From assembly GCA_011525665.1 (NCBI GenBank), contig WYAU01000074.1, forward strand, positions 1-52,357: a stretch of 52,357 nucleotides of DNA, in the 5' to 3' direction. The notes beneath the pieces were generated by a model. That model was not told the origin of the DNA. It saw only the letters and a program-made list of their open reading frames with translations, and searched no databases. Shown here piece after piece: positions 409 to 1,601 of the stretch (within the stretch, counting starts at the first letter, position 1; every line of letters begins with the position of its first letter). Origin of the DNA: Candidatus Brocadia sp. GTDB taxonomy: Bacteria > Planctomycetota > Brocadiia > Brocadiales > Brocadiaceae. The position numbers and the translations under genes were made by a program.

Positions 409-437
409 TTGACATAAAATTTTAAAGATGTTATTAA
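409..437 (+). promoter_or_regulatory. Sigma-70-type promoter for the riboswitch leader
   Basis: TTGACA at 409-414 is a perfect -35 box. It is separated by 17 bases from TATTAA at 432-437, which matches four of six -10 positions. Transcription would start near 444, about 30 bases before the riboswitch aptamer. Position and spacing are seen; promoter activity is inferred. Confidence 0.55.
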
Positions 438-471
438 TATCGATAATCAGCGATTCAGAAAAAAATAAATA

Positions 472-600
472 TTTCGATAAGGGCAAACCCTGAGTGATCA
501 GGGGGCGCAAAGCAAAGGGTCTTTAATTAAGTTCAGAGTCCGGGGTTCTGCGTTTAGAGTTTAAAGACGCGACTTATAAGACAGCCTTACTGCCGAAGGT
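472..600 (+). promoter_or_regulatory. Cyclic di-GMP-I (GEMM-I) riboswitch
   Basis: The conserved GEMM-I blocks occur in order. GGGCAAACC is at 481-489. The P2 hairpin CCCTGA / TCAGGG is closed by a GNRA tetraloop, GTGA (494-497). The GCAAAGC block follows at 507-513. P3 is formed by GGGTCTT (517-523) pairing with AAGACAGCC (578-586), with a long variable extension between. The aptamer ends in TGCCGAA at 591-597. The 5' strand GGGCAAACC is the same as in the c-di-GMP-binding Vc2 aptamer, which favours c-di-GMP over cGAMP, although I cannot place the specificity base with certainty. The 3' end overlaps a terminator, and the next gene is the AsmA-like protein at 810. Confidence 0.85.
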
Positions 601-640
601 GTTTTTCATGAACATTTTTGCAGTTAGGCTTTTTTGTTTT
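583..640 (+). terminator. Riboswitch expression-platform terminator
   Basis: AGCCTTACTGC (583-593) can pair with GCAGTTAGGCT (620-630) with one mismatch, followed by TTTTTTGTTTT-like sequence from 629 to 640. The 5' arm is the same sequence that completes the riboswitch P3/P1 region, so aptamer folding and terminator folding are mutually exclusive. Inference: ligand binding would prevent termination and turn the downstream gene on. Confidence 0.8.
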
Positions 641-809
641 AAAGTGATATCTGCCTGGTTGTATTGAGTTTCCCATCGGTGACCCCAAGGCATTCGACTA
701 CCAAACTGCCGTCAGGATTGATGCTGGTGTTCTGAGGCAGGAGAGAGGCAGATGAGATAAAGTATCGTCTAAAATAAATGAACTAATACGCTAGAAAGGG
801 AGCCATTAT

Positions 810-1601
810 ATGAGAAATATCATTAAAATTCCCCTCATTGCAATCCCTTCAATAATCCTTATCGTTTTTGTTTTTTTCTCAGTCTTTATCAATACCATCG
901 TTAAGAAAAGTGTTGCGTCCTTTGGACCAAAGATTACCCAAACTCCCATAAGTCTTCAAAAAGTTAAGATATCACTCCTTTCCGGACATAGCGAAATACA
1001 CGGACTTGTCATAGGCAATCCCGAAGGCTTTTATACTGATTCTGCATTAAAATTCGATACTGTTGTCATAGATATCAGACCCCTTTCCATTTTCTCTGAT
1101 AAAGTAATCATCCGAAACATCCTTATCGACAGCCCTGAGATAACGTATGAAACATCCGTTGAAGGAAGCAACATTGGCAAGATTAAAAAAAATGTTGAAT
1201 CATATTCCTCATCATCCCGTTCACAAACAACCGCGCCTGGTGAATCATCAAACGGACACAAGGAAACGAAACAAGTGCACATAGACACCTTTGTGCTTCA
1301 AAATGGGAAAATACGGCTGAGCACAAAGTTATTGCAGGGGAAAACGCTGGACATACCGCTTACGAAAGTGCAACTTCGTGATATTGGAAAAGAGTCCGGC
1401 AGTGCAAGCTTTCCCGTAGTCATTGAGAAGTTAGCTGATGCAATATACAAGGCAATTCTCGAAGCGGTCACGGGATCGGGCAAAACTATTGAAAAGGGTG
1501 TTGATGCCGTGACTGATTCGGCCAAAGAGATTGACGAAACAGCAAAGGAGGGCTTGTCGAAAGCAATAGAGGGAATGAAAAAACTGTTTGACAAAAAGTA
1601 A
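810..1601 (+). CDS. AsmA-like envelope protein, riboswitch-controlled
   Basis: A 263-residue protein with an uncleaved N-terminal membrane anchor (residues about 7-30, very rich in Ile, Val and Phe). A periplasmic region follows that resembles the N-terminal repeat of AsmA/DUF748 proteins (residues about 45-115: a GxSEIHGLVIGNPEGF-type turn, then a beta strand on associated 'IDSPEITYE' text). A Ser/Thr-rich linker lies at about 130-155, and the C-terminus is Lys/Glu-rich and amphipathic. AGAAAGGGAG lies just before the ATG and fixes the start. AsmA-family proteins act in the envelope, in outer-membrane lipid or protein homeostasis; the exact role here is unknown. It is the first gene after the c-di-GMP riboswitch and stands alone, with about 540 bases to the next gene. 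The protein is far shorter than E. coli AsmA, so it is a minimal member or a distant relative. Confidence 0.6.
   Translation: MRNIIKIPLIAIPSIILIVFVFFSVFINTIVKKSVASFGPKITQTPISLQKVKISLLSGHSEIHGLVIGNPEGFYTDSALKFDTVVIDIRPLSIFSDKVIIRNILIDSPEITYETSVEGSNIGKIKKNVESYSSSSRSQTTAPGESSNGHKETKQVHIDTFVLQNGKIRLSTKLLQGKTLDIPLTKVQLRDIGKESGSASFPVVIEKLADAIYKAILEAVTGSGKTIEKGVDAVTDSAKEIDETAKEGLSKAIEGMKKLFDKK

Follow-up and report, generated by a model that had tools for sequence, protein, structure and literature searches.

A predicted class I c-di-GMP ON riboswitch upstream of an AsmA-like gene, one of many related RNAs in Candidatus Brocadia

In a 52,357-nucleotide contig from Candidatus Brocadia sp. (WYAU01000074.1, assembly GCA_011525665.1; hereafter the window, meaning this whole stretch of DNA), the leader of a gene for an AsmA-like protein resembles a cyclic di-GMP riboswitch. 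This resemblance raises the questions of whether the RNA is a true member of that class, which ligand it recognizes, in which direction it would switch the gene, and whether it is the only such sensor in the genome. From comparative sequence evidence, we conclude that the leader is very likely a class I c-di-GMP ON riboswitch that acts at transcription termination and is part of a regulon spread across the genome. The element belongs to a known riboswitch class, and its interest lies more in this regulon than in the AsmA-like target.

Promoter, aptamer and ligand

A predicted sigma-70 promoter can be read directly from the forward strand at positions 409–437, with TTGACA at 409–414, a 17-base spacer and TATTAA at 432–437. 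These elements are present as the original prediction had read them, but the −10 sequence is poor, and a consensus promoter scan of the window did not report TTGACA-17-TATTAA. Farther along the same strand, the Rfam model for c-di-GMP-I (GEMM-I) RNAs, RF01051, matches positions 472–597 over its complete length (model positions 1–87) with a score of 58.1 bits and an E value of 7e-9, compared with a gathering score of 35 bits. This match is the sole Rfam hit across the 52-kb window and was also found in a whole-genome search. A covariance-model search had been proposed as the check on the initial GEMM-I assignment, and its outcome establishes the identity of the aptamer.

The individual elements also lie where they were first placed, with GGGCAAACC at 481–489, GCAAAGC at 507–513 and TGCCGAA at 591–597, together with a hairpin (CCCTGA-GTGA-TCAGGG, 488–503) whose GNRA loop, GUGA, occupies 494–497 in the Rfam alignment. 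When the window copy is aligned to RF01051, the GGGCAAA, GCAAAG and UGCCGAA portions of the three-way core are all present. A GNRA loop is found in 95 of 98 related copies, a set drawn from six genomes plus that of a sister species (G010). Thus the RNA shares with RF01051 and Vibrio Vc2 a full-length model match, the GNRA loop, the GGCAAA, GCAAAG and NCCGAA core, and a G at the ligand-choosing position. It differs from them in that, like nearly all copies of the cassette, it has a continuous GUCUU/AAGAC-like stem in place of the tetraloop receptor, and in the long variable insertions of the second stem. By a crude pattern test, the canonical receptor (CUAA/UAUGG-type) occurs in 2 of the 98 copies and is lacking in the window copy; the second stem instead continues as GGUCUU/AAGA in 96 of the 98. 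The receptor is common in RF01051 but is no requirement for passing the Rfam cut-off, and we take its absence as a variant feature, one that could lower affinity. Other aptamers of the bacterial family, for example those of genome G017, keep the CCUAA/UAUGG form.

We take the ligand-contacting nucleotides of Vc2 to be G20, A47 and C92 (Vc2 numbering), and nucleotide 482 of the window (forward strand) is presumably the equivalent of G20. According to a rule that Kellenberger and Nelson are both said to have described in 2015, the base at position 20 separates c-di-GMP aptamers from cGAMP aptamers, with G being the c-di-GMP type and A suggesting cGAMP. The equivalent nucleotide is G at 482 and in 97 of the 98 copies, the remaining one being unscored because it failed the search pattern only. 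A key pocket nucleotide change has been described previously (PMC9481103). Many Geobacter GEMM-I RNAs sense 3',3'-cGAMP (PMC6456294), and the same behavior here would be in keeping with the shared Rfam family and with the cytochromes among the downstream genes, as in Geobacter. The discriminating G nonetheless makes this reading very improbable, and cGAMP was rejected as the ligand on that ground. The host genome contains 20 GGDEF and 9 EAL domain matches, and so c-di-GMP, the molecule that the aptamer is predicted to bind, can presumably be both made and degraded.

A strand shared by aptamer and terminator

The strand GCCTTACTGC at 584–593 is at once the 3' strand of the aptamer and the 5' arm of an intrinsic terminator, and it is nearly invariant across the genus. 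The terminator extends from 584 to 635 on the forward strand, with an inner stem around 596–619, a 3' arm at 620–629 and six T residues at 630–635. This sharing of sequence had been recognized in the original prediction, with the strand given as 583–593 rather than 584–593. Because the 5' arm of the terminator is a strand of the aptamer, the two folds are mutually exclusive, and bound ligand should give read-through.

The 3' arm of the window terminator, GCAGTTAGGC, carries one T-T mismatch, and most other copies have GCAGTAAGGC. Its hairpin folds at −20.9 kcal/mol, compared with a median of −24.0 kcal/mol for the copies, and ranks 69th of 81 when these are ordered from the most stable. When the full leader is folded in isolation by ViennaRNA, with the ligand unmodelled, it adopts the terminator fold at −53.3 kcal/mol, with a penalty of 13.5 kcal/mol if the 3' arm is blocked. 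All 34 assessable copies of the host genome have a T-tailed arm with complementarity to the 3' strand of the aptamer. Over six genomes, 83 of 96 scorable family copies have a downstream T-tailed complementary arm with a score of at least 19, versus 0.04% in shuffles. Compensated changes are also observed, such that GCCTTGCTGC pairs with ACAGCAAGGC in two copies on contig C17 and GCCTTACCGC pairs with GTGGTAAGGC in C18.

We propose that RNA polymerase would start near position 444 and transcribe the aptamer first. If c-di-GMP is bound, 584–593 would be kept paired within the aptamer, the terminator would be blocked, and the AsmA-like gene would be transcribed. At low c-di-GMP levels, 584–593 would pair with 620–629 instead, and the resulting hairpin and six Us would end transcription near 635. 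The same logic, in which bound ligand prevents the terminator and turns the gene on, was put forward originally, and it appears well supported by the covariance-model match, by 97 related copies, and by conservation before the orthologue of a sister species.

The opposite response, with c-di-GMP favoring termination, would not be without precedent. Class I OFF switches are common, some other Brocadiaceae platforms look OFF, and C. difficile 630 has 12 class I riboswitches, a group that in this species is OFF, with c-di-GMP favoring termination (PMC6366702). However, in the window leader the terminator 5' arm and the aptamer strand are one and the same, so that both structures cannot coexist, and an OFF response is extremely improbable. 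The predicted ON response can be set beside the description of Bc2 from Bacillus thuringiensis (cap gene), a class I c-di-GMP switch reported to turn its gene on via transcription read-through (PMC6366702, PMC4933901), from which the window leader differs in that Bc2 has a Firmicute host and a collagen-adhesion target.

The AsmA-like gene and its orthologue in a sister species

The gene itself (810–1601, forward strand) encodes a protein of 263 amino acids with one N-terminal hydrophobic helix. A ribosome-binding site, GAAAGGGAG (794–802, forward strand), lies 7 nucleotides before the ATG, and in sister species G010 the ATG has an identical GAAAGGGAG before it. The earlier call of an AsmA-like product was right but narrow: the protein scores 30.9 bits with PF05170 (AsmA), a marginal pass of the 29.8-bit cut-off, and its DUF748 score of 48.6 bits is below the cut-off of 50. 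These matches span the first 185–196 residues. The protein resembles AsmA/DUF748 proteins (PF05170, PF05359) in its membrane-anchored N-terminal region, but it is less than half the length of the AsmA model and has a lysine- and glutamate-rich helical C-terminal tail. An AlphaFold2 model built with four sequences has a mean pLDDT of 31 and suggests the N-terminal helix alone.

The gene occurs in 6 of 33 family genomes (E ≤ 1e-5), with homologues that are 89% identical in G010 (same genus), 59% in G018 and G019, 58% for a fragment in G024, and distant in G020. Use of the protein as a query against genome contigs for related loci found no relative. Comparison of the window gene with that of G010 gives a dN of 0.052, a dS of 0.33 and a dN/dS of about 0.16, and thus the protein is under purifying selection. 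In G010, an RF01051 match, likewise of 58.1 bits, ends 69 nucleotides before the gene, a promoter at the aligned place (TTGACA-18-TATAAT) agrees with the consensus at 12 of 12 positions, and the terminator arm is a perfect GCAGTAAGGC. Since promoter, aptamer and terminator are all kept before an 89% identical protein, the pairing of riboswitch and gene is conserved. In contrast, no aptamer was found at E ≤ 1 upstream of the homologues in G018, G019 and G024, which belong to another Brocadiaceae genus. The predicted control of AsmA by c-di-GMP is thus not ancient; either the riboswitch came to precede this gene inside the Ca. Brocadia genus, or the others have lost it.

Between the terminator and the gene, the window carries a 141-bp segment (643–783, forward strand) that alignment and blastn find to be absent from G010. 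An inverted repeat, ATCTGCCT (649–656) and AGGCAGAT (746–753), lies near its ends. The segment is present as a single copy in the host genome and is absent from the 32 other family genomes searched, and on these grounds we rejected the idea that it is a repeated mobile element.

Relative to G010, the window copy looks eroded, judging from its changed −10 sequence, its one terminator mismatch and these private 141 bp. Such changes may reduce the dynamic range of the switch, or transcription of the gene may begin at a different site. They could also mean that this is a decaying copy, in which the aptamer is recognizable yet the switch is irrelevant because a different promoter, such as one within the insert, drives the gene. 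The weak −10 beside the perfect one in G010, the T-T mismatch with its low stability rank, and the insert would all fit decay. However, the hairpin, with its T6 tail, is still inside the family range of stability, the aptamer score is fully kept, and the consensus scan likewise reports no promoter between 640 and 809. We therefore consider decay unlikely, and favor a working ON switch.

One cassette across the genus

The single leader from which the analysis started is one of 35 near-identical sensors in the host genome (G000; 3.63 Mb, 111 contigs, 99.9% complete), as counted by a whole-genome RF01051 search in which all 35 matches lie above the cut-off. Equivalent searches find at least one copy in all 33 family genomes, with 20–56 in the eleven of this genus and 1–28 in other genera; the highest count in the genus is 56, in G006 (4.1 Mb). 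Nearly all copies represent one aptamer-plus-terminator cassette of about 110–170 nucleotides set in unrelated flanks. Among the host copies, alignment columns are highly conserved over a span that opens about 8 bases ahead of GGCAAA and closes with the T-run; upstream of −20 and past the T-run they carry almost no information. Because conservation is confined to that span, the shared unit is the aptamer plus terminator, without a promoter or gene. A shared promoter within the cassette was rejected, as there is no common sequence upstream of about −20. The inner hairpin of the terminator, CGAAGATGTTT, is conserved though unneeded by the aptamer, suggesting that the copies share an ancestor and did not arise by convergence.

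An exact search of 84,980 species genomes for a 20-base piece of the cassette recovered at least 110 stretches, and the matches listed come mainly from Ca. Brocadia, Jettenia, Kuenenia, Scalindua and other Planctomycetota. One contig labelled Bacteroides sp. (JAUNJD010000001.1, L093) carries the Brocadia 20-mer, probably through a binning error. The host itself is a member of the anammox genus Ca. Brocadia. Hydrazine synthase alpha (PF18582) has no match in this 99.9% complete assembly and is present in 6 of 11 genomes of the genus; its absence probably reflects an assembly or binning gap. Anammox identity is accordingly taken from the genus and from the named Ca. Brocadia, Jettenia, Kuenenia and Scalindua records that contain the 20-mer, not from PF18582.

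Targets were assigned by a simple, uncurated first-ORF rule. The first genes after the host copies include those for cytochromes (P460, c' and c552), surface proteins with Kelch, RCC1 and Ig-like domains, a matrixin, an M23 peptidase, an amidase, a GDSL lipase and a sigma-54 response regulator. Envelope functions dominate this list, and the AsmA-like gene is in keeping with it. The 35 sensors, an unusually large set, probably place genes for the surface and for biofilms under a single signal, to which at least 34 further cassettes built alike would respond with the window leader. Rising c-di-GMP would then turn on the envelope gene alongside adhesin-like surface proteins, cytochromes, peptidases and a phage-sheath-like operon. 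A role in attached or aggregated growth seems plausible. In anammox sludge, c-di-GMP correlates with EPS or matrix production (review PMC11224092), and Guo et al. 2017, as cited in PMC8851195, concerns c-di-GMP in the aggregation of Ca. Jettenia caeni.

Large GEMM-I sets exist elsewhere, with a count of about 30 in G. uraniireducens. G. sulfurreducens has 17, some of them arranged in tandem, upstream of genes for cytochromes and surface proteins (PMC6456294), and the 12 class I riboswitches of C. difficile 630 (PMC6366702) give a further point of comparison. Ca. Brocadia resembles G. sulfurreducens in having many GEMM-I RNAs per genome before genes of these kinds, but its copies are of the c-di-GMP type by sequence, are commoner, and have an almost uniform expression platform. 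On balance, we lean toward the view that Ca. Brocadia holds the largest c-di-GMP-I regulon yet seen, with a portable cassette that is without the canonical tetraloop receptor and stands before dozens of unrelated genes. In the literature searched, with subscription papers mostly outside it, we found no description of c-di-GMP riboswitches of anammox bacteria, and novelty is unproven.

If this view is true, the anammox surface would have c-di-GMP as its master ON signal, and the AsmA-like gene would be a recent recruit. Growth of anammox bacteria takes the form of granules and biofilms, and we know of no pure cultures or routine genetics for them. A regulon that can be read from sequence names likely targets, the AsmA-like gene included, and its RNA parts can be tested outside the cell. 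The presence of dozens of copies of a single RNA switch within a genome is also an unusual natural case for asking how riboswitches spread.

Several individual loci merit mention. The cassette at L045:4165-4791 (contig C60 of the host genome) precedes a gene for a GGDEF protein, and positive feedback on c-di-GMP synthesis is possible there. Another (L046, contig C15) precedes an operon encoding phage-tail-sheath-like proteins (PF04984); this operon may specify a c-di-GMP-controlled contractile injection system. On the minus strand of L021 (positions 1–14000 of C17), aptamers occur in the pairs 10963–11056/10676–10769 and 9212–9309/8997–9096. The members of each pair are closely spaced, each aptamer has its own terminator, and they resemble reported tandem c-di-GMP-I arrangements.

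In other Brocadiaceae genera, the aptamers at L064, L078, L083 and L089 are followed by AAGACCC...GGGTCTTTTT terminators. The terminator 5' arm at these loci could pair with the GGGUCUU strand of the aptamer, from which an OFF response is predicted, the opposite of that of the Brocadia cassette. At L084 and L090 in G022, and at L257, L258 and L260 in G017, the aptamer 3' strand is repeated downstream (CCTTACTNC), where a separate terminator has it as its 5' arm; this strand duplication is predicted to invert the switch from ON to OFF.
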